Shown here piece after piece: positions 1 through 13,934 of a stretch of 64,000 nucleotides of DNA; the stretch's first letter is position 1, and each line of letters starts with the position of its first letter. Source of the DNA: Rhizomicrobium sp. (GTDB taxonomy: Bacteria; Pseudomonadota; Alphaproteobacteria; Micropepsales; Micropepsaceae); the NCBI GenBank assembly GCA_037200045.1, contig JBBCHM010000001.1, forward strand, positions 372,001 through 436,000, in the 5' to 3' direction. The position numbers were made by a program, and so were the translations under genes. The notes under the pieces were generated by a model that was given only the letters and a program-made list of their open reading frames with translations, made no database searches and had not been told where the DNA came from.

Positions 1-904
1 CCGGCATCTGATGGCGCAGATAGGCCGCGTCGAATTCCTGCGGCGTGCCCTTGGGCAGACCCTCGGCGTCCGCCAGCCGCGTGAAATAGCTTTCGACCAG
101 GCCCAGCGAGCGGTCGTCGATGTCCACGCTGTGGCCCATCTCGCGCAGATTGCTCACCATGCGCGACGCCGACGGCAGCGAGGTGCCGTTCGCCAGCGCG
201 CCGGCGCCGGTGTGCACCGCATCGACGCCCAGTTCGGCGGCCACCATATAGGCGAGCGGCGCCAGCCCGATCGTGCAGTGGGCGTGGATTTCGAGCGGCT
301 TGTCGCCCATGACGGCCTTGACCGCCGGCACCAGCGTCCGCGCGCGATCCGGCAGCAGGATGCCGGCGGGGTCCTTTATATAGACACGGTCGATATAGGG
401 GCACTGCGCGGCCGCGCGCGCGATGCCGGCATAGAACGCGTCGTCATGCACCGCGCTTACCGTATAGGTCAGCGCCGCCATGACATCGGCAACGCCTTCC
501 TCCTTCGCCATCCGCGCCGAGGTCAGCAGCCCGTCGAGATCGTGCATCGGATCGAGCACGATGACGCGTCCGATCCCGGCCCGGGCGATGGAGCGGTAGA
601 CCAGCCGCATGAAATCCGGATCGGCGGTCTCCCAGGAGATGAAGCGGAATCCCGTGGTGATGTATTGCAGCGGCGTGTTGGGCGCCGCCGCATGGGTGAG
701 GCGGATGAGGTCCCAGGGATTCTCCTGCTTGTAGCGCACCGCCATCGCCATATGCGTCGAGGAATTGAAATCGAGCGCTCGGAATCCCACGCGGTCCATG
801 ACTGGCGCGATCTGCACGATCTGCGCGGTGTTCAGCCCGGTGGCGCCCCACAGGCTTTGATTGCCGTCGCGGATCGAGATATCGACAAGATCGATCTTCG
901 CCAT
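1..904 (-). CDS. HMGL-like carboxyltransferase domain protein (3' end cut by window edge)
   Basis: An open frame starts at the ATG whose complement lies at 902-904 and runs off the left edge, giving at least 301 residues. It is a TIM-barrel of the HMG-CoA lyase/pyruvate carboxyltransferase type. The N-terminal metal-binding motif DISIRDGNQS (residues 8-17), a lysine in YIKDPAG (K177) at the place of the carbamylated lysine of biotin-dependent carboxyltransferases, and the H-x-H pair in IHAHCT (H204, H206) are visible. These features favour a carboxyltransferase subunit (pyruvate or oxaloacetate type, or an aryl-ketone carboxylase) over a simple lyase. It sits downstream of a PpsA-like phosphotransferase on the same strand, a pairing that recalls the phosphorylation-then-carboxylation of acetovanillone. 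Biotin carboxylase and biotin carrier genes are not in the window. The substrate is inferred only. Confidence 0.8.
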   Translation of the reverse strand, partial: MAKIDLVDISIRDGNQSLWGATGLNTAQIVQIAPVMDRVGFRALDFNSSTHMAMAVRYKQENPWDLIRLTHAAAPNTPLQYITTGFRFISWETADPDFMRLVYRSIARAGIGRVIVLDPMHDLDGLLTSARMAKEEGVADVMAALTYTVSAVHDDAFYAGIARAAAQCPYIDRVYIKDPAGILLPDRARTLVPAVKAVMGDKPLEIHAHCTIGLAPLAYMVAAELGVDAVHTGAGALANGTSLPSASRMVSNLREMGHSVDIDDRSLGLVESYFTRLADAEGLPKGTPQEFDAAYLRHQMP

Positions 905-1058: not shown

Positions 1059-2882
1059 CTACTCCAATATCGTCACGATGCCGCGATTGCCGTCGACGCG
1101 CAGCCGCTGTCCGGTCACGATCCGCTTGGTGGCCTGGCCCGTCCCCACCACCGCGGGCATGCCGTATTCCCGCGCCACGATGGCGGCATGGCTCATCGTG
1201 CCGCCGATATCGGACACCGCCGCCTTGATCTTGCCGAACACCGGTCCCCAGCTCGGGCTGGTGACCGGACAGACCAGGATGTCGCCCTCGCGCACCTGGC
1301 CGATCTCGCCGGCGGTCTTCAGCACGCGCGCGATCCCTTCGACCACGCCCGGCGAGGCCGCGAAGCCGGCGATCTCGTTCTTGCGATCCTCGTCCACCGG
1401 CATGGACCAGCGCTCCAGGCTCTCGCTGGTGATGCCCCACAGCATCTGCACCGCCGGGTCCTCGACCGAATCGGGCAGGGGGCCCAGCGCCATCGGCGCG
1501 TTCCAGTCCTTGAGCTTTTCGTGGATCGCGCGGCGCCGCTCCACCAGCGGCTTGAAGTGCCGCCCGCCCTGGCATTCGACGCCAGCCGCCCAGGCCAGCA
1601 TGGCGTCGACCAGCGCCTGATCCACTTCGGTGTGCTGCAGGTGGAAGATGTCTTCCGCCTTCTCCAGCACGTTGGAGCGCACCAGCAGATCGCCGAATTC
1701 GCGCACCTTGTTGTAGAAGGTGACGACGAACCAGTGCTCGCAGAAGAATTTGTGATCCTCGACATAGGGGAACACGAGGTGGCACAGGCCGAGCATCTGG
1801 TCGAACGCCGCCCGGTCGTCGTCGGTCGCCAGCAGGTCGCGGTAGTCGGCGATGAAACGCTCGCGCTCCTTCTTGAGCTTCTCGATCGGCCGTTCGAGCG
1901 ACTCGCCGCGCTTGACCATGTCGATATAGCGCGGCAGCGCCGAGAACGGGATCGTCAGGTCGTCGTTCCAGCTTCGCTGATGGTGATAGAAGCCGTCGCC
2001 GCTCGAAATGTTGAACCAGGGCTCGCGCGCCCGCGCGAACGCGTCGAGCCATTGCCGTCCCGCGTCGCCCATCTGCTCCAGGGAGGCCAGGATATCGTTG
2101 TGGTCGGCGCCCTCGACGAACTTGCCGTCGACGCCGAACGCCACCGCCGCCTTCGCGAGGCCCTTGAGCTCGTCGTCGGGGCGGAACATCAGCACGTCGA
2201 TGCCGGCCACCATGCGCGCCACGGTCTGGTCGGCGATCTCGGGAAACGCCTGCTTGCAGTATTGGAAGAACACCAGATAGGCGCCGTAGCCGAGCATCAG
2301 GAACTCGAAATGGTAGTTCCACATCTTCGAATAGGCTTCGATGGTGCGATGCCACGCCTCGCGCACATAGTGGTTCTCCGCGACGCCGTGCGCCGCCATC
2401 ACCGTCTCGCGCTTCTCCAATTCGCCGAGCGCCGGCACCTCGATCGCCTTGCACTGAGCGATGAGCCCCTGGATGCGCGCCTTCCACTCCTCGAACAGCC
2501 GCGGCCAGTTCTGGTAATAATGGCCGGCGCGCTGCTGAAACTCCAAGAGGCGCGCCTGGATCTGCTCCGGATCGGTGACGGCGTGCGAGGTGATGTAGAC
2601 CCGCCCGTTCAGGATGCGGTATTCGATCCCCAGCACCGTCGGGAAGGCGAACATCCGCGCCGTCATCGCGCCCAGCGCGGTATACGGCACCTCGGCTCCG
2701 ATGCCATCGAAGGCGGACAGCGGCTCGGGAAAATGCATCGAGTTGTAGAACCAGAAGCGCTGATCGTCCTCCGGCCGAAAGCGGGTGTAATAGGGATAGA
2801 GTTCCTGCCAGTCCGGCGATCCGTCGAGGTCCGCGGTCTGCGACGGCAAGGGGAACGGATTTTTCGCGCCCTCGATACCCAT
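1059..2882 (-). CDS. PEP-utilizing phosphotransferase, phenylphosphate synthase PpsA-like (acetovanillone kinase subunit candidate)
   Basis: 607 residues. The last ~85 residues form the swivelling PEP-utilizers mobile domain with the signature GGTMSHAAIVAREYGMP, in which H565 is the expected phospho-histidine. There is no ATP-grasp (PEP/pyruvate-binding) domain, so a separate ATP-binding subunit is required. Phenylphosphate synthase PpsA is known as a ~70 kDa protein resembling the central, histidine-bearing part of PEP synthase, working with an ATP-binding PpsB; this protein has the same size and layout. Related pairs phosphorylate the phenol group of acetovanillone-type ketones before carboxylation. 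A GGGAGAAAG ribosome-binding site precedes the ATG. The partner ATP-binding gene is not in the window and may lie beyond the left edge. The domain call is strong; the substrate is inferred from the neighbouring aromatic genes. Confidence 0.82.
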   Translation of the reverse strand: MGIEGAKNPFPLPSQTADLDGSPDWQELYPYYTRFRPEDDQRFWFYNSMHFPEPLSAFDGIGAEVPYTALGAMTARMFAFPTVLGIEYRILNGRVYITSHAVTDPEQIQARLLEFQQRAGHYYQNWPRLFEEWKARIQGLIAQCKAIEVPALGELEKRETVMAAHGVAENHYVREAWHRTIEAYSKMWNYHFEFLMLGYGAYLVFFQYCKQAFPEIADQTVARMVAGIDVLMFRPDDELKGLAKAAVAFGVDGKFVEGADHNDILASLEQMGDAGRQWLDAFARAREPWFNISSGDGFYHHQRSWNDDLTIPFSALPRYIDMVKRGESLERPIEKLKKERERFIADYRDLLATDDDRAAFDQMLGLCHLVFPYVEDHKFFCEHWFVVTFYNKVREFGDLLVRSNVLEKAEDIFHLQHTEVDQALVDAMLAWAAGVECQGGRHFKPLVERRRAIHEKLKDWNAPMALGPLPDSVEDPAVQMLWGITSESLERWSMPVDEDRKNEIAGFAASPGVVEGIARVLKTAGEIGQVREGDILVCPVTSPSWGPVFGKIKAAVSDIGGTMSHAAIVAREYGMPAVVGTGQATKRIVTGQRLRVDGNRGIVTILE

Positions 2883-3042: not shown

Positions 3043-3933
3043 ATGACCGGTCCCACACAGCGTACGCAGTTGGCGGAGTTCCTGCGCAGTTGCCGCGCGC
3101 GGCTTTCGCCGAGCGCCGTCGGCCTGCCCGCGGCCGGACGGCGGCGCACGCCCGGCCTGCGACGGGAAGACGTCGCCGCCTTGGCCGGCCTCTCGGCCAC
3201 CTGGTACACTTGGCTTGAACAGGGCCGCGACGTGCGCGCGTCGGATCGCGTGCTCGAAAGTCTCAGCCGCTCGCTCCGCCTGTCGCCGGAGGAGCGCGAC
3301 TATCTTTTTCTCTTGGCGCAGCACCGGCCCGCGCCGATCCGTCTGGCGTCGGAACAGCTTGTGCCCGACACGGTCAAGCGCACGCTGGACGCGCTGAACG
3401 TTCCCGCCGAAGTCATCACGCCGCGCTGGGATGTTCTCTACTGGAACGCGATGTATGCGCGCTGCATTCGCGATTATGGCCTTTTGCCGCCGGAACGGCG
3501 CAACCTGATGCGCATCCTGATCACCAGTCCCGAATATCAGGAAGACCCGGAAGAGTACGAGACGCTGGCCCGCCGCATCACCGCCAAGCTCAAGGTCGAC
3601 TACAGCCAGTCGGACGGCGATCCGGCGTTCGACGCGCTGATCGAGGAGATGTCGGAAGCCTCGCCGGTGTTCCGCGAATTGTGGCGCAGCTCCGAAGTGC
3701 GCGGCCGCTCCGAGGGCGTGCATCTGCTGAAGCATCCCCAGCTCGGCGGCATCACCTTCGAGCACACGTCTTACGTGGTGGAGGGCGCGCCGTCGCTCCG
3801 GGTCGTGATCTTCGCGCCGCACGACGCGGAGAGCGCCCGCAAGATCGCCGAACTCGCGAAAGAGGTCGGCACGCCGGGCCGGCGCGAGCCGGTCGACGCG
3901 CTGCCCGAACCGGCGGTCATGGGGCGGCGATAG
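3043..3933 (+). CDS. XRE-family transcriptional regulator with MmyB-like ligand-binding domain
   Basis: 296 residues. The first ~75 residues are a helix-turn-helix of the XRE type, with the characteristic RRTPGLRREDVAALAGLSATWYTWLEQGRD segment in which GLRREDVA and WYTWLEQGRD are diagnostic. Residues ~110-270 match the MmyB-like transcription regulator ligand-binding domain (WDVLYWNAMYA, NLMRILITSPEYQ, LKHPQLGGITFEHTSYVVEG). Such proteins regulate a neighbouring oxidoreductase in response to a small ligand, possibly a fatty acid or aromatic. The stop codon directly abuts the ATG of the following dioxygenase-like gene, so the two are co-transcribed. It probably controls that gene, the divergent PpsA-like gene, or both. 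Confidence 0.88.
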   Translation: MTGPTQRTQLAEFLRSCRARLSPSAVGLPAAGRRRTPGLRREDVAALAGLSATWYTWLEQGRDVRASDRVLESLSRSLRLSPEERDYLFLLAQHRPAPIRLASEQLVPDTVKRTLDALNVPAEVITPRWDVLYWNAMYARCIRDYGLLPPERRNLMRILITSPEYQEDPEEYETLARRITAKLKVDYSQSDGDPAFDALIEEMSEASPVFRELWRSSEVRGRSEGVHLLKHPQLGGITFEHTSYVVEGAPSLRVVIFAPHDAESARKIAELAKEVGTPGRREPVDALPEPAVMGRR

Positions 3934-4851
3934 ATGTCCGATGGGGCTTTGAAGATGTCCGGCGACGATATCGAGGATCGGGTTCGCAGCGTCGAGACGC
4001 GGATCACCTATGTCGCGCCGGGCTCCTTCGTGAACCGCCGCTTCGTGGCGCCGGGCGTCGAGCACAATACCGGCCGCTACGAGCCGCATACGGTGCGCGT
4101 GCGCGACGGCCGGTCCATCGCCGGCCATTTCACGCTGGACAGGAACGGCTTTCAGCTTTTTCCGCACCGAAGCGCGGTGAAGGATTTCTTCGACAAGGAC
4201 GAGGTCGACCGCGTCTATCCGGACGAAGTGGCGGCGGCGGTGAAGGCGTTCACCGGCGCCAGTTGCGTCGCCACCATGGGCTGGATGGTCCGCACCTCCG
4301 GCGACATGTCCAAATACAAGCGCGAGACCGTCGGCTATGCGCATCGCGGCGGCGTGCAGCCGCCGGCCGGCGAGGCGCATGTCGATACCGCGCCCGACCG
4401 CGCCGATCGCGTCGCCCGGATGAACTACGAGCGCCATTTTCCGAACGGCAAGGGTTATTCGCGCTATATCTATGGCAGCTATTGGCGCGCCTTTTCGGAG
4501 CCGCCGCAGGACGTGCCGCTCGCGGTGTGCGATGCGCGCAGCGTGCGCGCCGACGAAGGCACGACCAACACGCTTTTCATCGTCGACAAGATTCCCGACG
4601 AGGCCACCATGCTGGGGCCGATGGCGGACGAGGACATCGTGCCGGGCGCCGCGATCTTCACCTACAACCCGGCGCATCGCTGGTGGTATTTCTCGAACAT
4701 GACCCGCGACGAGGCGCTGCTGATCAAGTTCCACGATTCCGACCGCAACCGCGCCTGGCGCACGCCGCACACGGCGTTCCGCGATCCGAGCTTTCCGGAT
4801 GCCAAGCCGCGCGCCAGCATCGAGTTCAGGATCGTCGCCTATTTCGAGTGA
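3934..4851 (+). CDS. CmcJ/NvfI-family oxidoreductase (Fe(II)/2-oxoglutarate-like)
   Basis: 305 residues from the ATG that immediately follows the regulator stop codon; a second in-frame ATG eight codons in is an alternative. The protein looks like the CmcJ/NvfI family (cephamycin CmcJ, fungal AsqJ-neighbour and GA4-desaturase-like proteins): FVNRRFVAPGVEHNTGRYEP near the N-terminus, HVDTAPDRADRV with an H-x-D pair for a metal centre, NVWR-like SYWRAFSEPPQDVPLAVCDARSV, and the C-terminal HRWWYFSNMTRDEALLIKFHD. The family carries out hydroxylation or desaturation. The substrate here is unknown; location next to aromatic genes suggests a lignin or plant metabolite. Confidence 0.72.
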   Translation: MSDGALKMSGDDIEDRVRSVETRITYVAPGSFVNRRFVAPGVEHNTGRYEPHTVRVRDGRSIAGHFTLDRNGFQLFPHRSAVKDFFDKDEVDRVYPDEVAAAVKAFTGASCVATMGWMVRTSGDMSKYKRETVGYAHRGGVQPPAGEAHVDTAPDRADRVARMNYERHFPNGKGYSRYIYGSYWRAFSEPPQDVPLAVCDARSVRADEGTTNTLFIVDKIPDEATMLGPMADEDIVPGAAIFTYNPAHRWWYFSNMTRDEALLIKFHDSDRNRAWRTPHTAFRDPSFPDAKPRASIEFRIVAYFE

Positions 4852-4986: not shown

Positions 4987-5346
4987 TCACCGCGCGTCCG
5001 GCACGCGGCGCGTCTTGAGGAAATCCTCGAAGCTCTCGCCGCGCATGATGGCGTAGATCTCCAGATTGGTGATCTTGACCACGCGCGCGATCTTCTCGAT
5101 CAAGAACAGCGGCACGCCGTATTTGATCATGCCCAGCCAGTCGCGGTTGCGCACCAGCTCCCATTCCGGCTGCGACAGCCCCGCCTCGCGGCAGGCGCCG
5201 GCCTCGTCGGCGGTGAACCGCGCGCGGTAATCGGCGAGCCGCAGGTTCCACAGGAAGCGGTTCAGCTTGCGCGCGCGGTAGCTGCCGCGGATATCGAACG
5301 GATAGGTGCCTTCGAGCTTCTCGATGCCTTCGAGTTGCGGGTTCAT
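4987..5346 (-). CDS. ligA: Extradiol ring-cleavage dioxygenase, LigA-type alpha (small) subunit
   Basis: 119 residues, the usual length of protocatechuate 4,5-dioxygenase alpha subunit. The sequence GTYPFDIRGSYRARKLNRFLWNL, then LGMIKYGVPLFLIEKIARV and the closing IMRGESFEDFLKTRRVPDAR are typical of LigA. It forms part of the active-site lid over the LigB subunit. Its ATG overlaps the ligB stop codon (ATGA, 5343-5346), which indicates translational coupling and a stoichiometric complex. The order is ligB then ligA, the reverse of the Sphingobium SYK-6 ligAB operon and the same as the domain order in fused gallate dioxygenases of the DesB/DesZ kind. Confidence 0.88.
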   Translation of the reverse strand: MNPQLEGIEKLEGTYPFDIRGSYRARKLNRFLWNLRLADYRARFTADEAGACREAGLSQPEWELVRNRDWLGMIKYGVPLFLIEKIARVVKITNLEIYAIMRGESFEDFLKTRRVPDAR

Positions 5347-6218
5347 CGGCCGGCCACCTTCTGGCGCTGGGCACCGGCGGCGCTCGCCTGCTCGTACAGT
5401 CCCACCGCCATCGCGGTGGAGGTCGCGAGATAATAGCTCTCGTGCAGGACGCGCAGCGGGCCGGGCAGGGCGCCGCGCATCGCGAGCCACATGATGACCT
5501 CGACGCTTTCGGCGCCGCCCAGCCGAACGAAATCGGCATGCGTCATGTCGAGCAGCTTCTCGGGCGCGCGCACGAACATCTCCATGAATTCGAGGTCCCA
5601 GGACTCGTTGTTGAAGCCGGCGCGCTCGCCATGCACCTGGTGCGACAGCCCGCCCGTGCCCACGATCACGACCTTCAGGTCCTGCGGAAAGGATTCGATG
5701 GCGCGGCGCACCGCCTGGCCGAGCTTGTAGCAGCGCCGCGCGGTCGGCAGCGGATACTGCACCACGTTCACCGACACCGGCACCAGCGCCGCCGGCCACG
5801 CCGGATCGTGCGGCAACAGCAGCGGCAGCGGCGAGAACACGCCGTGATCCAGCGGCCGGTCGAAGAAGGTCGCGATGTCGAACTCCTCGTTGACCAGCTG
5901 CTCGGCCAGATGGATCGAAAGCTCGAGATTGCCCTTGATCGGCGGCAGCGGCCGCTTGCCGCCGCCTTCGTCGGCGACTTCGAACTGCTCGCCGATGCCG
6001 ATCGCGAAGGTCGGGTACAGGTCGAAGAAAAAGCTGCTCGCATGGTCGTTGAAGAACGTCACCAGCACGTCGGGCTTGTTCTCCGCCAGCCATTCGGCCA
6101 CCGGCCGATAGCCCTCGAACATCGGTGCCCAGGCGGGCTCGTTCTGCTTCTTCTTGTCGTAGGCCATGGCGATGGTCGGTACGTGCGAGGTTCCGATGCC
6201 TCCGATGATGCGTGCCAT
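5343..6218 (-). CDS. ligB: Extradiol ring-cleavage dioxygenase, LigB-type beta (catalytic) subunit
   Basis: 291 residues. The non-haem iron ligands of LigB can be placed: H12 in GIGTSHVP, H59 in FFNDHAS and E240 in GAESVEVIMW; the catalytic acid/base histidine is H193 in GLSHQVHG. The offsets match SYK-6 LigB (H12, H61, E242, H195) after a two-residue shift. The enzyme cleaves a catecholic acid such as protocatechuate, gallate or 3-O-methylgallate next to the hydroxyls, in the cytoplasm. A GGAGAG ribosome-binding site precedes the ATG. The exact substrate cannot be chosen from sequence; protocatechuate is the default given the LigM-like demethylase nearby. Confidence 0.9.
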   Translation of the reverse strand: MARIIGGIGTSHVPTIAMAYDKKKQNEPAWAPMFEGYRPVAEWLAENKPDVLVTFFNDHASSFFFDLYPTFAIGIGEQFEVADEGGGKRPLPPIKGNLELSIHLAEQLVNEEFDIATFFDRPLDHGVFSPLPLLLPHDPAWPAALVPVSVNVVQYPLPTARRCYKLGQAVRRAIESFPQDLKVVIVGTGGLSHQVHGERAGFNNESWDLEFMEMFVRAPEKLLDMTHADFVRLGGAESVEVIMWLAMRGALPGPLRVLHESYYLATSTAMAVGLYEQASAAGAQRQKVAGR

Positions 6219-6337: not shown

Positions 6338-7027
6338 ATGAAGCAGGTGGTGTTTCTGCTACCAGGATTGCTGTGCGACGCCGCGGTCTGGCGTTCGCAG
6401 GTGCGAACGCTGTCGGACGGCCACGACGTCCGCGTGCCGCATTTCTTCGGCTACGATTCCATTCCCGCGATGGCCCGGTCCGTCCTCGCCATGGCGCCGG
6501 AGCGCTTCTCCCTGGCCGGGCATTCCATGGGCGCCCGCGTCGCCATCGAAATCGCCGGCCAGGCGCCGGAGCGCGTCGAACGGCTCGCTTTGTTCGACAC
6601 CGGTGTGCACGACGTGCGGCCCGGCGAGCGGGAGGGCCGGCAGGAACTCGTCGATCTCGCTTATGCGCAGGGGATGGAGGCGCTGGCCGCGCGCTGGATC
6701 CCGCCCATGCTGGCGCCCGCGGCCGACCCCGCCCTGATGGCGGAAATCGCCGCCATGGTGTGCCGCGCCACGCCGCTGATCTTCGCGCGGCAGATCCGTG
6801 CTTTGCTGGAGCGTCCGTCGGCGCGGGCGGTGCTGCCCGCCATCGCCTGCCCGGTCCAGATCGCGGTCGGCCGGCAGGACGGCTGGAGCCCGGTGTCCCA
6901 GCATGAAGAGATCGCCGCGCTGGTGCCCGGCGCCAAGCTGACGGTGATCGAGGATTGCGGCCACATGGCGCCGCTGGAACAACCGCGCGCGGTCGGCGAT
7001 ATTCTCGCGAACTGGCTCACCTCCTGA
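6338..7027 (+). CDS. Alpha/beta hydrolase
   Basis: 229 residues, compact and without a signal peptide. The nucleophile elbow is AGHSMGA (S63), the acid is probably the aspartate in GRQDGWSP and the histidine is in DCGHMAPLEQP, giving a full catalytic triad. The family includes esterases, C-C hydrolases and lactonases; nothing in the sequence settles which. It is divergent from ligBA and followed ten bases later by a SnoaL-like gene, so the two form a small operon inside the aromatic island. A role on an ester, lactone or ring-cleavage product is plausible. Confidence 0.85.
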   Translation: MKQVVFLLPGLLCDAAVWRSQVRTLSDGHDVRVPHFFGYDSIPAMARSVLAMAPERFSLAGHSMGARVAIEIAGQAPERVERLALFDTGVHDVRPGEREGRQELVDLAYAQGMEALAARWIPPMLAPAADPALMAEIAAMVCRATPLIFARQIRALLERPSARAVLPAIACPVQIAVGRQDGWSPVSQHEEIAALVPGAKLTVIEDCGHMAPLEQPRAVGDILANWLTS

Positions 7028-7037
7028 GGAAACGAAC

Positions 7038-7493
7038 ATGACGGACGCACTCTCGCCGCTCGACCGCCTGGCGATCACCCAGACCTGCATCGATCTCCTC
7101 TACCGTTTCGCGAAGCTGAACGACGACCGCGAGGCGGATGCGCTGGCGGAGCTGTTCGTGGCCGACGGCGTGTTTCGCCGTCCGACGCTGCCCGACCAGC
7201 CTTATGAAGGCCGCGAGGCGATCCGCGCGGGCTTTCGCGCCAAGCCGGCGAACCTGCTCACCCGCCATGTCATCTGCAATCCGGTCATCACCGTCTTGAG
7301 CGCGAACGCGGCGCGGGCCGACAGCTACATCCTGCTCTACACGGCGGCGATCGAGCCGGGCGCCAAGCTTCCCGTTCCGGCGAACCCCAAGCAGCTTCTG
7401 GGCGCGTTCGAAGACGTCATCGTGCGGGACACGGATGGCGTTTGGAAGTTCAAGACGCGCAACGGCAGCCTCGCGATGACCATCGGCGGGTGA
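7038..7493 (+). CDS. SnoaL-like (NTF2 fold) protein
   Basis: 151 residues. The pattern LDRLAITQTCIDLLYRFAKLNDDREADALAELFVADGVF at the N-terminus and the following YEGREAIRAGFRAK are characteristic of the SnoaL-like/NTF2-fold superfamily, which contains cyclases, isomerases, dehydratases and small ligand binders. The ATG follows the hydrolase stop by ten bases with a GAGGAAACGAAC ribosome-binding site. Function unknown; co-transcription with the hydrolase suggests joint work on an aromatic intermediate. Confidence 0.78.
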   Translation: MTDALSPLDRLAITQTCIDLLYRFAKLNDDREADALAELFVADGVFRRPTLPDQPYEGREAIRAGFRAKPANLLTRHVICNPVITVLSANAARADSYILLYTAAIEPGAKLPVPANPKQLLGAFEDVIVRDTDGVWKFKTRNGSLAMTIGG

Positions 7494-7638: not shown

Positions 7639-8784
7639 TTAAGCTGCCTTGCGCAGCCGCGTCGACGCGATCCGCGCGCCTTCGCTCAAGGCGTGCAGCT
7701 TCTTGTACGCGATCGCCGGATCGAGCTTGCCGTAGCCGGCGAAGGTCCCGAAGCCGCAATCGGTGCCCGCGATCACGCGTTCGCGCCCCACGATGTCGAC
7801 CCAGCGCTCGATGCGCTGCGCCACCAGCTCGGGATGCTCGACGTAATTGCTGCAGGTGTCGATCATGCCGGGCACGAGGATCTTGTCGTCCGGGATCGGC
7901 GCGCTCCGCCACGCGGCCCATTCGTGCTCGTGCCGCACATTGGCGCCCTCGAACAGGATGGCCTGCGGCTTCGCCTTGGCGATCGCGCCGAACAGCTTGT
8001 CGACCGCGATGTCGTGGTCGTGCGGCCCTTCGTAATTGCCCCAGCAGATATGCATGCGCACCCGCGACGCATCGATGCCTTCGAGCGCATGGTTCATCGC
8101 CTCGACATGCAGCGCCGCGCGCTTCAGGAACTCGGCCTCGCTCAAATCCTGGAAGGCGATATGGGCCGCCATGGCGAGGTCGGGGCAGTCGAGTTGCAGC
8201 AGCAGGCCCGAATCCACGATGGCGTGATATTCCGCCTTCATCGCTTCCGCGATCGCCGCCAGATACGCCTCGTGCGTCGGATAGAATTTGTTCGGCTGGA
8301 ACGCCGTGACCAGACCCGGCGAGGCGGAGTTCATGAACGCCTCGGCGACGCCGTTCTTCCGCGCCGCGGCTTTGAGGTTCTCGATGTCGATGTGCAGCGG
8401 GCCGAGGTCCTTCACCGCGACCGGCCCGATGCAGGACGAGCGGCGGAATTCCTGCGACCCCGTCATCCGCGCCATCTTCTGGCGGAATTCCGGATAGTCC
8501 TTGAGGTCGAGCGCGATGCGCCGCTCATTGTCGCCGCCGAACCCGGTCAGGCGATCCATCATGTAGGTCGAATAGCTGACCTTGCTCTGCTCGCCGTCGC
8601 TCGGGATATCGACGCCCGCTTCCTTCTGTCGCGCCACGGCATCGAATACCGCCGCGCGCACCACGCCGTCGAACGCGGCGTCCGCTTCGCCGCGATCCTT
8701 GCGCAAGAGCGCATCCACCAGCGTCTGCGAACGCGGCAGGCTGCCGACATGGGTCGTTAGAATCTGATCGCCGCTATGACGCAT
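7639..8784 (-). CDS. Core-MetE-like zinc methyltransferase (cobalamin-independent methionine synthase C-terminal family)
   Basis: 381 residues, equal to the C-terminal barrel of MetE without its N-terminal half. The zinc ligands are recognisable: H245 and C247 (MHICWGN), E279 (ILFEGAN) and C343 (GTDCGFG), matching H641/C643/E665/C726 of E. coli MetE. It begins with TTHVGSLPR, as in this family. A GAGGAG site precedes the ATG. Members move methyl or alkyl groups to or from a zinc-bound thiol (homocysteine, coenzyme M). Being in the same island as the LigM-like tetrahydrofolate O-demethylase, it may dispose of the methyl group, or it may act on an aromatic methyl ether or thioether. That assignment is inference. 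Confidence 0.8.
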   Translation of the reverse strand: MRHSGDQILTTHVGSLPRSQTLVDALLRKDRGEADAAFDGVVRAAVFDAVARQKEAGVDIPSDGEQSKVSYSTYMMDRLTGFGGDNERRIALDLKDYPEFRQKMARMTGSQEFRRSSCIGPVAVKDLGPLHIDIENLKAAARKNGVAEAFMNSASPGLVTAFQPNKFYPTHEAYLAAIAEAMKAEYHAIVDSGLLLQLDCPDLAMAAHIAFQDLSEAEFLKRAALHVEAMNHALEGIDASRVRMHICWGNYEGPHDHDIAVDKLFGAIAKAKPQAILFEGANVRHEHEWAAWRSAPIPDDKILVPGMIDTCSNYVEHPELVAQRIERWVDIVGRERVIAGTDCGFGTFAGYGKLDPAIAYKKLHALSEGARIASTRLRKAA

Positions 8785-8966: not shown

Positions 8967-9839
8967 GTGGCCGACAAAGTCATCATCACCTGCGCCGTGA
9001 CGGGATCGTCTCCCGTACCCGATCATCCGGATTTCCCCAAGTCCAACGAGCAGGTCGCCAACGCGGCGCTCGAAGCGGGCGAGGCGGGAGCATCGATCAT
9101 CCATGTCCATGTCCGCAAGCCGGACGGTTCGCAGTCGGTGGATTTCGAGGACTACGAAGAGGTCTACAACCGCATCCGGCAGAAGAACAACGAGCTCATC
9201 ATCAACCTCACGACCGGTCCGGGCTGCAACTGGATCCAGTCGGACGAGGACCCGATGATGCCCGGCCCCGGCGCCCAGGTGTTCACCGCGGAAAAGCGGC
9301 TGGAGCATATCGACAAGCTTCGCCCGGAAATGTGCACGCTCGACATCTGCACCATGCAGATCTTCGGCACCGTGGCGATCAACACCAAGAAGATGATGAC
9401 CAAGATGGGTCACATGATCCGCGACATGGGCGTCAAGCCGGAGATCGAGGTGTTCGACACCGGCGATCTCGTCTTCGCCGACGATCTGATCGCCGAGGGC
9501 GTGCTCGACGGCCCCGGCGTCTATTCGGTCGTGATGGGCACGAAATACGGCATCCCGGCCGATCCGGAAGCGATGATCTACTGCAAGAACCGCCTGCCGA
9601 AGGGCGCGATCTGGCAGGGTTTCGGCATCTCCAAGCACACCTGGGCGATGGCCGCGCAATCGGTGATCCTGGGCGGCAATGTGCGCACGGGCTTCGAGGA
9701 CTCGACCTATCTCGGACCGGGCCGGCAGGCGCGCTCCAACGGCACCATGGTGATGCAGGCCGCCGAACTGGTGGAGCGTCTGGGCCGCGAGGTCGCGACG
9801 CCCGGCGAGGCGCGCAAGCAATTGGGACTGCCTCACTAG
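8967..9839 (+). CDS. Beta-keto acid cleavage enzyme (BKACE, DUF849)
   Basis: 290 residues from a GTG start with a GAGGA site six bases upstream. The fold is the BKACE TIM-barrel. Zinc ligands H46 and H48 (IIHVHVR) and E244 (GGNVRTGFED) are conserved, as in the lysine-fermentation enzyme Kce. BKACEs condense a beta-keto acid with acetyl-CoA and release acetoacetate plus the CoA ester of the shortened acid. In front of ligE- and ligM-like genes and a GMC oxidoreductase, a natural substrate would be vanilloylacetate, Ar-CO-CH2-COOH, giving vanilloyl-CoA and acetoacetate. It could correspond to VceA of Sphingobium SYK-6; I cannot confirm orthology without an alignment. Confidence 0.9.
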   Translation: MADKVIITCAVTGSSPVPDHPDFPKSNEQVANAALEAGEAGASIIHVHVRKPDGSQSVDFEDYEEVYNRIRQKNNELIINLTTGPGCNWIQSDEDPMMPGPGAQVFTAEKRLEHIDKLRPEMCTLDICTMQIFGTVAINTKKMMTKMGHMIRDMGVKPEIEVFDTGDLVFADDLIAEGVLDGPGVYSVVMGTKYGIPADPEAMIYCKNRLPKGAIWQGFGISKHTWAMAAQSVILGGNVRTGFEDSTYLGPGRQARSNGTMVMQAAELVERLGREVATPGEARKQLGLPH

Positions 9840-9894
9840 AAGGCGGCCCGCAGGAGGGGACGACGGCATGCGCCGCGTCCAAGAAGGACGGAAC

Positions 9895-10638
9895 ATGGCC
9901 AAGGACAACACGATCACGCTGTTCGATCTTCAGCTCGCGAGCGGTTGCACCATCAGCCCGTTCGTCTGGGCGACGAAATACGCGCTGAAGCACAAGGGCT
10001 TCGACATCGACATCGTGCCCGGCGGCTTCACCGGCATCCAGGAGCGCACCAAGGGCTTCGCCGACCGCGTGCCGGTCATCATCGACGACGGCCACTGGGT
10101 GAAGGACAGTTGGGAGATCGCCGAATATCTCGACAAGACCTATCCCGACCGCCCGATGCTGATCGAAGGCGACAGCATGAAGGTGCTGACCAAGTTCATC
10201 GACGCCTGGCTGTGGGCCACCGCGATCCGCCCGTGGTTCTCCTGTTACATCCTCGATTACCACGACCTCTCGCTGCCGCAGGACCATGCCTATGTCCGCG
10301 AGAGCCGGGAAAATCTCTTCCTCCAGGGCCGCAAGCTCGAAGACGTCCAGGCGGGCAGGGAAGAGCGCCTGCCGCTGGTGCCGCCGGAGCTCGAACCGTT
10401 CCGCGTCCTTCTGAAGGACACCAAATGGCTCGGCGGCGACAAGCCGAACTATGCCGACTACCGCGCGCTCGCCGTGTTCCTGTGGACCGCGTCGGTCGCA
10501 AAGATCCCGCCGCTTTACGCCGACGATCCGCTCAAGGACTGGATCGACCGCGGTTTCGATCTTTACGGCGGCCTCGGCCGTCATCCCGGGATGCACAACC
10601 TCTTCGGCCTGCCCAAGCCCACGGCCAAGGCCGCCTGA
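9895..10638 (+). CDS. ligE: LigE-type beta-etherase, glutathione S-transferase family
   Basis: 247 residues from the second ATG; the upstream ATG at 9868 is rejected because the ribosome-binding site AAGGACGGA precedes 9895 and the protein then starts like LigE (MA-DNTITLFDLQLASGCTISP). The match to SYK-6 LigE is strong from memory over the N-terminal thioredoxin-like domain (KYALKHKGFDIDIVPGGFTG, RVPVIIDDG) and the helical domain (CYILDYHDLSLPQD, KLEDVQAGREERLPLVPP, FLWTASVAKIPPL, GRHPGMHNLFGL). LigE cleaves the beta-aryl ether of Calpha-ketone lignin dimers with glutathione, giving a phenol and a glutathione adduct. It is ~30 residues shorter at the C-terminus than SYK-6 LigE. No ligF, ligG or Calpha-dehydrogenase gene is in the window. 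Confidence 0.88.
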   Translation: MAKDNTITLFDLQLASGCTISPFVWATKYALKHKGFDIDIVPGGFTGIQERTKGFADRVPVIIDDGHWVKDSWEIAEYLDKTYPDRPMLIEGDSMKVLTKFIDAWLWATAIRPWFSCYILDYHDLSLPQDHAYVRESRENLFLQGRKLEDVQAGREERLPLVPPELEPFRVLLKDTKWLGGDKPNYADYRALAVFLWTASVAKIPPLYADDPLKDWIDRGFDLYGGLGRHPGMHNLFGLPKPTAKAA

Positions 10639-10663
10639 CAGATTTATTGGAGAACAAAGCCCT

Positions 10664-12061
10664 ATGAGTGAGAAAAGCGTCGAAGACCTGATCCAGGCAT
10701 CCGGCAATGTCGTCGAGATGCTGCGCAATTCGCAGTCCGGCCCGAACGTCTATCCCGGCGTGAAGCCGGAATACACCAACTGGCGCGACGAGCAGAACGC
10801 CTGGCAGAAGACCGCCGTGCTGTTCAACCAGTCCTATCACATGGCCGATCTCGCGGTCGAAGGGCCCGACGCGTTCAAGCTGCTGAACTATCTGGCGCCG
10901 AACAGCTTCAAGGGCTTCGTGCCGGGCCGCGCCAAGCAGTTCGCGCCCGTCAGCCATGACGGCTACCTGATCGGCGACGTGATCATGTTCTATCTCGCCG
11001 AGAACAAGTTCAACCTGGTCGGCCGCGCGCCGGCGCTGGAATGGGTCCAGTTCCACGCCGCCACCGGCAAGTGGGACGTGAAAGCCGAACTCGACCAGCG
11101 CACCGCGCTGCGCGCCGACGGCAAGCGCAAAGTGTGGCGCTATCAGATCCAGGGCCCCAACGCGATGAAGGTGCTGGAGAAGGCGCTGGGCAAAAAGCCG
11201 GAGGAGCTGAAGTTCTTCCACATGCGCGACATCGAGATCGCCGGCAAGCCGGTCACCGCGCTGCGCCACGGCATGTCCGGCCAGCCGGGCTGGGAATTGT
11301 TCGGCCCCTGGGAAGACGCCGAGGCCGTGCACGCGGCCCTGGTCAAGGCGGGCGAGGAATTCGGCCTGCGCCTCGTCGGCGGCCGCGCCTATTCGACCAA
11401 CGCGCTGGAGTCCGGCTGGATTCCCTCGCCGCTGCCGGCGGTCTATTCCGGCGAGAAGATGAAGCCCTACCGCCAATGGCTGACGGCCAAGAGTTACGAG
11501 GCCGCGGCCTCGCTCGGCGGCAGCTTCATCTCCAGCCGGATCGAGGACTATTACCTGACGCCGTGGGACATCGGCTATGGCGGCTTCGTCAAGTTCGACC
11601 ACGACTTCATCGGCCGCGAGGCGCTGGAGAAGATCGCGCCCGGCCCGCACCGCAAGAAGGTGACGCTGGCGCTGAACAATGACGACGTGACCCGCACCTT
11701 CTCGACGATGTTCAACAAGCAGGTGCGCGCGAAATATTTCGACTCGCCGTCGGCGGTCTACTGCATGCACCTTTACGACCGCGTGCTGTCGGGCTCGAAG
11801 GCCGCCGGCATCTCGACCTGGATCGGCTACAGCTCCAACGAAGGCAAGATGTTGACCCTCGCGATCCTCGACGCCGAATTCGCCGAGCCGGGCAACGAGG
11901 TCACGCTGATCTGGGGCGAGCCGAACGGCGGCACCAGCAAGCCGACCGTCGAGCCGCATGTGCAGACCGAAATCCGCGCGGTGGTCAGCCCGTCGCCTTA
12001 CACGGAGGTCGTTCGCCAAGGCTACGCGCCCGGCGGCTGGCGCGCGGCGGCGCAGGGCTAG
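10664..12061 (+). CDS. ligM: LigM-type tetrahydrofolate-dependent aromatic O-demethylase
   Basis: 465 residues from the ATG preceded by TTGGAGAACA. It belongs to the GcvT (aminomethyltransferase) fold and resembles vanillate/3-O-methylgallate demethylase LigM and syringate demethylase DesA: GNVVEMLRNSQSGPNVYPGV, IGDVIMFYLAENKFNLVGRAPA, LRHGMSGQPGWELFGP, NALESGWIPSPLPAVYSGEK, IEDYYLTPWDIGYGGFVKFDHDFIGR and the closing PTVEPHVQTEIRAVVSPSPY segment are all LigM-like. It transfers the methoxyl methyl group of vanillate or a relative to tetrahydrofolate, giving a catechol and 5-methyl-THF. It follows ligE by 25 bases, so the two are likely one operon with BKACE. LigM versus DesA specificity is not settled. 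Confidence 0.88.
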   Translation: MSEKSVEDLIQASGNVVEMLRNSQSGPNVYPGVKPEYTNWRDEQNAWQKTAVLFNQSYHMADLAVEGPDAFKLLNYLAPNSFKGFVPGRAKQFAPVSHDGYLIGDVIMFYLAENKFNLVGRAPALEWVQFHAATGKWDVKAELDQRTALRADGKRKVWRYQIQGPNAMKVLEKALGKKPEELKFFHMRDIEIAGKPVTALRHGMSGQPGWELFGPWEDAEAVHAALVKAGEEFGLRLVGGRAYSTNALESGWIPSPLPAVYSGEKMKPYRQWLTAKSYEAAASLGGSFISSRIEDYYLTPWDIGYGGFVKFDHDFIGREALEKIAPGPHRKKVTLALNNDDVTRTFSTMFNKQVRAKYFDSPSAVYCMHLYDRVLSGSKAAGISTWIGYSSNEGKMLTLAILDAEFAEPGNEVTLIWGEPNGGTSKPTVEPHVQTEIRAVVSPSPYTEVVRQGYAPGGWRAAAQG

Positions 12062-12077
12062 TTCGTCGTACTCAGAC

Positions 12078-12201
12078 TGTCATGGCCCGCGAATGCGGGC
12101 CACCCAGTTGAGTTCTGTGGAACGGTGCAGGATTTGTGGAAGCCCATACTTCCACATGGAGCAGATATTACCTGGGTGGCCCGCATTCGCGGGCCATGAC
12201 A
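12078..12201. repeat. TGTCAT...ATGACA intergenic palindromic repeat, copy 4
   Basis: The largest copy. The outer arms (TGTCATGGCCCGCGAATGCG and its inverted partner ending GGGCCATGACA) pair perfectly over more than 25 bases. The interior holds a smaller hairpin around TGTGGAAG...CTTCCACA at 12135-12157. It lies between the ligM-like gene and the GMC gene, on the same strand, so it may attenuate read-through. Confidence 0.85.
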
Positions 12202-12278
12202 ACGCGGGATTTGATCAGCTAAAATCAAAATCATTCTAATGGCATAAAAGAAGAAAAAGGCGCTGGGAGGCGACGCAC

Positions 12279-13934
12279 ATGGCTGCGGATACGTTCGATT
12301 TCATCGTGGTCGGCGCGGGCAGCGCCGGCTGCGTGCTGGCCAACCGGCTGTCCGCCGATCCGAAGAACACGGTTCTGCTTCTGGAAGCGGGCGGCGACGA
12401 CCGGCCGCTGCACAATCTGAAGCAGTTCTGGTCGAACCTGATGATCCAGACGCCGATCGGGTTCGGCAAGACGCTGAACGATCCGAAGGTGAACTGGCTT
12501 TACGAGACCGAGATCGACGAAGGCTCGGGCGGGCGCCGGCACAAATGGCCCAAGGGCAAGGTGCTGGGCGGCTCGTCCTCGATCAACGGCCTGCTTTATA
12601 TCCGCGGCCAGTCGGCGGATTACGACGGCTGGCGCCAGATGGGCTGCGAGGGCTGGTCGGCGCAGGACGTGCTGCCCTATTTCCGCCGCGCCGAGCATCA
12701 GGAGCGCGGCGCCGACGACTTCCACGGCACCGGCGGCCCGCTCAACGTCTCCGACATCACCGAGAAGAACGAGATCTCGCAGGCGCTGCTCGAAGCCGCC
12801 GTCGAGGCCGGCATCCCGCGCAACGACGACATCAATGGCGGCGACCAGGAAGGCGCGACCTGGTTCCAGCTCACGGTCAAGAACGGCCGCCGCCACTCCA
12901 CCGCCGTCGGCTACCTGCATCCCGTGATGGGCCGCAAGAATTTGCGCGTCGAGACCGAGGCGCAGACCACGCGTGTGCTGTTCGAAGGCAAGCGCGCCGT
13001 CGGCGTCGAATACATCCAGCACGGCAGCAAGAAGACCGCGCGCGTCCGCCGCGAGGTGATCCTCGCCGCCGGCGCCGTGGCTTCGCCGCAGCTTCTCGAA
13101 GTCTCCGGCATCGGCAACGGCGAGGTGCTGCAAAAGGCCGGCGTGAAGGTGCTGCACGAATTGAAGGGCGTCGGCGAGAACCTCCAGGATCACTACATGA
13201 TCGGCTGCCAGTGGCGGCTGAAGCCGGAATGCGCCACGGTCAACGAGCTGTCGCGCGGCCTGCCGCTGCTGAAGGAGATTTTGAAATACGGCTTCCTGCG
13301 CAAGGGCCTGCTGACCTTCGCCGTCGCCCATGTCGTGGCGTTCCTGAAGTCGCGCGCCGAGCTGGCGCATCCCGACCTGCAATTCCACATGATGGCGGCG
13401 TCGATGGACCTCGAAATCCTCGGCAAGACCCAGGCGCTGGTGCTGGAGAAGGAGCCGGGCCTGACCTGCACGCCGTGCCAGATCCGCCCCGAATCGCGCG
13501 GTACCGTCCATATCAAATCGCCGGACGCGACGGTCTATCCGTCGATCGTGCCCAACTATCTCGCCGATCCGGCCGACAAGCAGGCGGCGATCGCCGGCCT
13601 CGACTGGGCGCGCAAGATCATGAACCAGCCTTCCATTGTGAAATATCTCGCCGCCCCCGGCGATCCGTTCGGCGACACCGACGAGAGCAAGATCGCCTAT
13701 GCCAAGCTCGCCGGCGCGACGCTCTATCACGCGGTCGGCACGGCGAAGATGGGCCACGATCCGATGGCGGTGGTCGATCCGCAATTGCGCGTCCACGGGA
13801 TCGAGGGCCTGCGCGTGGTCGACGCCTCGATCATGCCGCGCATCGCGTCGGGCAACACCAACGCGCCGACCATCATGATCGCGGAAAAGGCGGCCGACAT
13901 GATCCTGGGAAAGAGCGTCGCGGTCGCGGCTTAA
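12279..13934 (+). CDS. GMC-family FAD-dependent alcohol oxidoreductase (HpvZ-like candidate)
   Basis: 551 residues. The N-terminal FAD-binding motif is FIVVGAGSAGCVLANRLS, followed by LLEAGG, the GMC signature GKVLGGSSSINGLLYIRG, and near the C-terminus LYHAVGTAKMG with the catalytic histidine and GNTNAPTIMIAEKAAD. There is no signal peptide. GMC enzymes oxidise primary alcohols such as choline or aryl-propane alcohols. In SYK-6 a GMC enzyme (HpvZ) oxidises the gamma-alcohol of beta-hydroxypropiovanillone, the product of beta-ether cleavage. Position directly after ligE/ligM-like genes makes that role attractive here. A GGGAGGCGAC site precedes the ATG. Confidence 0.87.
   Translation: MAADTFDFIVVGAGSAGCVLANRLSADPKNTVLLLEAGGDDRPLHNLKQFWSNLMIQTPIGFGKTLNDPKVNWLYETEIDEGSGGRRHKWPKGKVLGGSSSINGLLYIRGQSADYDGWRQMGCEGWSAQDVLPYFRRAEHQERGADDFHGTGGPLNVSDITEKNEISQALLEAAVEAGIPRNDDINGGDQEGATWFQLTVKNGRRHSTAVGYLHPVMGRKNLRVETEAQTTRVLFEGKRAVGVEYIQHGSKKTARVRREVILAAGAVASPQLLEVSGIGNGEVLQKAGVKVLHELKGVGENLQDHYMIGCQWRLKPECATVNELSRGLPLLKEILKYGFLRKGLLTFAVAHVVAFLKSRAELAHPDLQFHMMAASMDLEILGKTQALVLEKEPGLTCTPCQIRPESRGTVHIKSPDATVYPSIVPNYLADPADKQAAIAGLDWARKIMNQPSIVKYLAAPGDPFGDTDESKIAYAKLAGATLYHAVGTAKMGHDPMAVVDPQLRVHGIEGLRVVDASIMPRIASGNTNAPTIMIAEKAADMILGKSVAVAA

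Follow-up and report, generated by a model that had tools for sequence, protein, structure and literature searches.

Which reaction does the BKACE encoded beside lignin-type genes in Rhizomicrobium sp. catalyze? The gene lies in a 64,000-nucleotide stretch of contig JBBCHM010000001.1 (assembly GCA_037200045.1, positions 372,001 to 436,000 of the forward strand), which we call the window. BKACEs convert a beta-keto acid and acetyl-CoA to an acyl-CoA and acetoacetate (PMC12871164). In strain SYK-6, VceA acts on vanilloyl acetic acid in the route to vanillate, and vanilloyl-CoA and syringoyl-CoA are substrates of the thioesterase VceB (PMC11837543). The initial annotation of the window had proposed the BKACE as a candidate for vanilloylacetate cleavage. 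We found support for this proposal in a clade shared with the SYK-6 BKACE, in linkage to lignin-type genes at 12 of 13 clade loci and at none of 40 others, and in a neighboring HpvZ-like GMC oxidoreductase. Judging from sequence, the protein is probably a Zn-dependent, acetyl-CoA-using BKACE of the VceA type, which would turn vanilloyl- or syringoylacetate and acetyl-CoA into the matching aroyl-CoA and acetoacetate. We observed gene identities, gene order, clade membership, linkage, and residues, and from these we infer every reaction, substrate, and co-transcription. The four central genes are the following.

8967..9839, + strand: BKACE (VceA-type), predicted vanilloyl-/syringoylacetate:acetyl-CoA cleavage enzyme, 290 amino acids (PF05853, clade, Zn ligands, W89/C128/F243)
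9895..10638, + strand: LigE-type glutathione beta-etherase, 247 amino acids (NCBIfam beta-etherase model; 77% to SYK-6 LigE)
10664..12061, + strand: DesA-type tetrahydrofolate-dependent O-demethylase, 465 amino acids (NCBIfam DesA and LigM models, SYK-6 identity)
12279..13934, + strand: HpvZ-type GMC oxidoreductase, 551 amino acids (65-67% identical to the product of the SYK-6 gene in the hpvZ position)

The BKACE and its clade

The protein scored 296 bits against the PF05853 profile (cut-off, 24.8) and is the single match to that profile in the window genome (4.73 Mb, three contigs). The Zn ligands H46, H48, and E244 are all present, as the initial annotation had stated, and they are invariant in an alignment of 11 sequences.

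Strain SYK-6 has one BKACE match at E <= 1e-60 (G559:C1:2690059-2690937), which is 54% identical to the window BKACE over 288 amino acids. We built a quick maximum-likelihood tree from 65 proteins, which became 51 once duplicates were dropped; a copy of the window protein (L020) was left out and the window protein itself added, giving 51 rows. Thirteen of the 51 BKACEs, including those of the window and SYK-6, were separated from the rest by a branch whose SH-aLRT value is 99. On this sequence tree, the window BKACE is in the same clade as that of SYK-6. The clade splits into one group with three genomes of the window's genus and a Caulobacteraceae metagenome-assembled genome (MAG), and another with a further genome of that genus (G029) and sphingomonads. 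Such BKACEs are rare: counting matches of at least 54%, we found them in 4 of the 37 genomes searched within the window's genus and in 5 of 397 in the family searched around G278.

Three residues mark the clade. Trp89, Cys128, and Phe243 occur together in all 13 clade rows, and none of them occurs in any of the 38 other BKACEs. Phe243 directly precedes the Zn ligand Glu244, and an aryl substrate would go well with aromatic residues near the metal. Together with the lignin neighborhood, the three residues separate such enzymes from other BKACEs, many of which are labeled 'Kce' in database records. Position 163 behaves differently: it is Phe in 13/13 clade rows and in 30 of the 38 others, and Tyr in the remaining 8. 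The corresponding Tyr145 of CcaKce and Tyr173 of PdKce are thought to be catalytic and were termed common to all BKACEs (PMC12871164), a claim that is too wide.

The initial annotation had named VceA and Kce as the proteins to compare. The first comparison gave the 54% identity to the SYK-6 BKACE that we take to be VceA. In the second, Kce, including PdKce (8RIP), has the family and the Zn ligands in common with the window BKACE, but the latter falls below the cut-off of the Kce model, carries Phe163 in place of Tyr, and exceeds 8RIO in the length of the loop that follows strand beta-3.

Likely operon partners and conserved linkage

The BKACE gene stands 55 bp before ligE, which is followed after 25 bp by the demethylase gene and, after a further 217 bp, by the GMC gene. 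This is the order that the initial annotation had described, with the BKACE first and the GMC gene about 200 bases on. The first three genes probably form an operon that starts with the BKACE gene. Because two copies of a dispersed palindromic repeat lie inside the 217-bp gap, this order does not imply that the GMC gene is transcribed together with them. The 18-base core of this repeat occurs 8 times at up to two mismatches (0.03 expected), at positions that include 4872, 7530, 12087, 12175, and 39566, several of them between cluster genes. Between 7000 and 14100 we found one promoter-like site, in the same 217-bp gap, a number equal to chance (mean, 1.0).

We place the LigE start at 9895, which fits better, and the demethylase start at 10664. 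LigE scored 442.5 bits against the NCBIfam beta-etherase model (cut-off, 440), and of the 4 matches to that model in the window genome it alone exceeded the cut-off. The demethylase exceeded the cut-offs of both the DesA model (822 versus 800) and the LigM model (607 versus 580), and it is 65% identical to SYK-6 DesA and 54% to SYK-6 LigM. Since DesA is closer by identity, we rejected LigM as its name. Thus, the earlier description of a BKACE beside LigE, LigM, and a GMC protein was borne out by profile for BKACE, LigE, and GMC and has to be changed to DesA-type for LigM.

The window GMC protein is 66% identical to the SYK-6 gene product at the hpvZ position and 46% to the next best SYK-6 GMC. 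In the reverse direction, SYK-6 HpvZ is 65% identical to the window GMC, the second-ranked GMC in the window genome reaching 43%; this mutual best match holds among the proteins compared, with a third GMC of the same genome (42% to the window gene) outside the reverse comparison. By this match, the window GMC is an HpvZ orthologue. The gene hpvZ is SLG_12830, three tags past ferD (SLG_12800) (PMC12997858). The SYK-6 gene orders that we observed (desA-hydrolase-ferA-ferB; ligD-ligF-ligE-ligG; ligM-metF-ligH-...-ferD-ligW2-MFS-GMC) fit the locus tags in that paper, several SYK-6 gene names having been assigned from size, place, and order.

We then looked at BKACE loci elsewhere. Within about 10 kb of the BKACE gene, at least one of LigE, LigF, LigG, HpvZ-type GMC, DesA, and hotdog thioesterase is encoded at 12 of the 13 clade loci, three of which were added by the DesA marker, versus none of 40 other BKACE loci, which are part of the non-clade places found; we chose the score limits ourselves, and eight of the 40 controls and three of the 13 clade loci are under 13 kb. 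L004 is the sole clade locus with no marker; a contig end lies 1.4 kb from its start. Genes not counted as markers also occur among the controls: a relative of the Nu-type glutathione S-transferase (GST) at one locus and a MetE-like relative at one.

The arrangements vary among the clade loci. In G029, BKACE and thioesterase genes lie 41 bp apart on one strand, and genes for a LigF-like GST, a Nu-type (YfcG-like) GST, a short-chain dehydrogenase/reductase (SDR), and an 84% identical GMC are nearby. A plasmid of Novosphingobium sp. RL4 carries the BKACE gene with those for LigE (80%), LigF (64%), LigG (68%), a thioesterase, SDRs, and aldehyde dehydrogenases; on a plasmid of Sphingobium sp. V4, its companions are LigF, LigG, a thioesterase, SDRs, and aldehyde dehydrogenases. 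The Caulobacteraceae MAG has the order BKACE-desA-GMC, and in SYK-6 desA is 1.4 kb from the BKACE gene. A thioesterase gene is near the BKACE gene in 5 of the 13 clade loci, all told, and in 5 of the 8 loci of the sister sub-clade, as would be expected if the product were an aroyl-CoA.

The SYK-6 BKACE is likely VceA, since formation of an aroyl-CoA from the free beta-keto acid without a synthetase fits both BKACE chemistry and the linkage of BKACE and thioesterase genes. It shares with the window BKACE the clade, the diagnostic residues, and a desA gene nearby. However, the SYK-6 gene lies far from ligE and hpvZ in a genome with a VceB-type thioesterase gene, whereas the window gene is probably the first of an operon that includes ligE and desA, in a genome where we found no such thioesterase. 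The function of VceA has already been published for SYK-6; what is new here is the lineage and the gene arrangement.

Proposed reaction and competing explanations

How would the BKACE fit into a pathway? Calpha-dehydrogenases and etherases of the LigE/LigF type would open beta-aryl ethers to give hydroxypropiovanillone or hydroxypropiosyringone, whose gamma-alcohol would be oxidized by the HpvZ-type GMC and an aldehyde dehydrogenase to vanilloyl- or syringoylacetate. Acetovanillone and acetosyringone could reach the same beta-keto acids through phosphorylation, carboxylation, and dephosphorylation by an Acv-type system. The BKACE would then use acetyl-CoA to form vanilloyl- or syringoyl-CoA and acetoacetate; a further enzyme would hydrolyze the aroyl-CoA; and the freed acid would pass through DesA demethylation to ring opening. 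Because desA is next door in the window and 1.4 kb from the SYK-6 BKACE gene, syringoylacetate is at least as likely to be the natural substrate as vanilloylacetate. Such a BKACE would join syringyl (S) and guaiacyl (G) lignin monomers and acetophenones in one funnel, which would be useful for lignin upgrading. It would also extend the step outside the sphingomonads and provide a test case with an apparently replaced thioesterase. For strain F199, what follows vanilloyl acetic acid is said to be unresolved (PMC11837543).

Several observations weigh against VceA-type cleavage. The presumed catalytic Tyr of canonical Kce is not present in the window BKACE, which has Phe163, and BsfD, which has the same Phe, transfers acetyl without cleaving. 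The identity of the SYK-6 BKACE with VceA is one that we infer: our literature search, which did not cover the original description of VceA, gave no text that calls VceA a BKACE or names its gene, and a further, not yet identified enzyme is said to participate in SYK-6 (PMC11837543). The 13 clade loci are related (about seven lineages by our own grouping), so that 12/13 does not count independent cases. LigE can also occur independently of a BKACE, for G278 and G359 have LigE over the cut-off and no BKACE at E <= 1e-60, and F199 has ligE, yet homologues of VceA and VceB are said to be absent (PMC11837543). Finally, a profile search that recovered the SYK-6 control at 1.7e-73 found a VceB-type thioesterase in none of three genomes of the window lineage (G000, the window genome; G028; G011).

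A class-wide search gave LigE over the cut-off in 3 of 385 genomes, the window genome included; the LigE loci of the two others, G278 and G359 as named above (L024 and L025, 3.8 kb each), have no BKACE gene beside ligE. The text on other BKACEs in PMC11961710 holds nothing that bears on aryl substrates.

The initial annotation had suggested looking for a thioesterase gene beyond the window. None of the VceB type was found in the window genome, either by the profile search or by single-sequence searches. G000 is 96.4% complete, and G028 is 100% complete and in one contig, so that we probably overlooked no such gene in those two; G011 is only 75% complete. Two explanations offer themselves: an unrelated hydrolase takes the place of VceB, or the reaction is a different one. 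The following two genes of the window are relevant to this choice and to the ring-opening step.

6338..7027, + strand: alpha/beta hydrolase, possible ester or thioester hydrolase (49% relative beside desA in SYK-6)
5343..6218, - strand: class III extradiol dioxygenase, gallate/3-O-methylgallate type (PF02900, 239.8 bits; PRK13365, 503 versus 299; gallate dioxygenase, 433 versus 412)

We can picture the BKACE as the shared exit of the beta-aryl-ether and acetophenone routes in a non-sphingomonad lineage, with the aroyl-CoA released by a new kind of enzyme instead of VceB, perhaps the neighboring alpha/beta hydrolase; this fuller picture is tentative, and we hold it rather doubtful as a whole.

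If the missing thioesterase instead meant different chemistry, BsfD would be the precedent. BsfD, from the flavophos cluster (9ZSC), is the closest solved sequence (262 bits); it shares Phe163, and its alignment with the window BKACE is gapless through the loop after strand beta-3. By analogy, the window enzyme would transfer acetyl to the alpha carbon with decarboxylation, and the resulting vanilloylacetone, an aryl 1,3-diketone, would be cleaved by the neighboring alpha/beta hydrolase. No thioesterase would be needed, in keeping with the lack of VceB-type matches in the three genomes searched, and the result would be a pathway variant without aroyl-CoA. However, because Phe is also found in 30 of the 38 non-clade rows, it does not by itself predict the BsfD reaction. 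The phosphonate Arg91 of BsfD aligns with Asn88 in the window BKACE, a position that varies within the clade among N, G, T, and M, and the window neighbors concern lignin, not phosphonates. In addition, members of the sister sub-clade share this Phe, and 5/8 of their loci have a thioesterase gene close by. We consider BsfD-like transfer very improbable.

An aliphatic substrate is also improbable, if less so. The enzyme would then act on a product of ring cleavage or amino acid breakdown, such as 3-oxoadipate or 3-keto-5-aminohexanoate, and serve lower aromatic catabolism. There is a precedent in the pca clusters of Methylobacterium, which contain a BKACE gene with beta-ketoadipate as its proposed substrate (PMC8963497), and the curated models for Kce (NF052387, 228.6 bits) and 3-oxoadipate BKACE (NF053568, 166.5 bits) do match the window protein. 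Both names were rejected, as the scores are below the cut-offs of 382 and 350, and all four named NCBIfam models that match are far under theirs (382, 430, 350, and 725). Furthermore, the clade is linked to genes for HpvZ, LigE/F/G, and thioesterases, and the nearby ring-cleavage gene is of the extradiol gallate type. Established pathways of extradiol gallate-type cleavage do not lead to 3-oxoadipate. It is likewise very hard to credit that the neighborhood carries no function, with vanilloylacetate handled by an acyl-CoA synthetase and a beta-ketoacyl-CoA hydrolase of the HpeEF type and the BKACE unrelated. Such a route was proposed in Rhodococcus, where HpeE and HpeF of R. rhodochrous GD02 would act on the same beta-keto acids; they belong to unrelated families, and VceA and VceB are not homologous to this pair (PMC9618137). 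Conservation of the linkage across several lineages and the tight spacing of the BKACE gene with ligE and desA argue against a chance neighborhood. We favor cleavage of an aroylacetate by a VceA-type BKACE.

Supply routes and other genes of the window

Where would the beta-keto acid come from? The Hpe system was shown to carboxylate acetovanillone to vanilloylacetate (PMC9618137), and the left end of the window has two genes of this type.

1059..2882, - strand: Acv/Hpe-type kinase subunit (kinase-beta, phosphoenolpyruvate-utilizer domain), beginning a split acetovanillone operon (55% identity with the acv-type operon of SYK-6)
1..904, - strand: Acv/Hpe-type carboxyltransferase, extending 580 bp past the left edge of the window and followed by a NagD-like phosphatase

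The SYK-6 relatives of kinase-beta, carboxyltransferase, and phosphatase (55%, 55%, and 42%) lie in a six-gene run whose other three genes fit kinase-alpha, biotin carboxyl carrier protein, and biotin carboxylase. Relatives of these three (54%, 48%, and 64%) are together at C1:962961-965774 of the window genome. The Acv/Hpe system appears, by sequence, to be split over two loci, unlike the single run of SYK-6, and its genes could also feed the window BKACE. Contig C2 of the window genome encodes an aldehyde dehydrogenase, an SDR, and LigF-like GSTs. It has a second lignin-type locus, C2:592001-612000 (L164), which encodes a FerD-like aldehyde dehydrogenase, a LigW2-like decarboxylase, an SDR, and LigF-like GSTs; L164 also encodes a large protein with a relative next to the G029 BKACE.

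Four more genes lie around the BKACE.

7639..8784, - strand: MetE-like (Meth_synt_2) protein, divergent from the BKACE gene (PF01717)
7038..7493, + strand: SnoaL-like protein (PF13577, 71.9 bits)
3043..3933, + strand: MmyB-type helix-turn-helix regulator (46-47% relatives directly divergent from BKACE genes on two sphingomonad plasmids)
3934..4851, + strand: CmcJ/NvfI-family oxidoreductase (58% relative near the SYK-6 acv-type operon)

Possible roles of the MetE-like protein are to take over the methyl group from DesA/LigM and to work on a glutathione thioether. One relative (70%) is encoded beside a VceB-type thioesterase gene in G812, and another (60%) near the corresponding gene in SYK-6. 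More broadly, MetE-like proteins recur near BKACE or thioesterase genes in the window's genus, the Caulobacteraceae MAG (70%), SYK-6 (60%), and G492 (59%). SnoaL-like relatives recur near thioesterase and MetE-like genes (45% in L111, 44% in L112), and RL4, V4, SYK-6, and G451 encode relatives of the CmcJ/NvfI-family protein close to BKACE, acv, or thioesterase genes.

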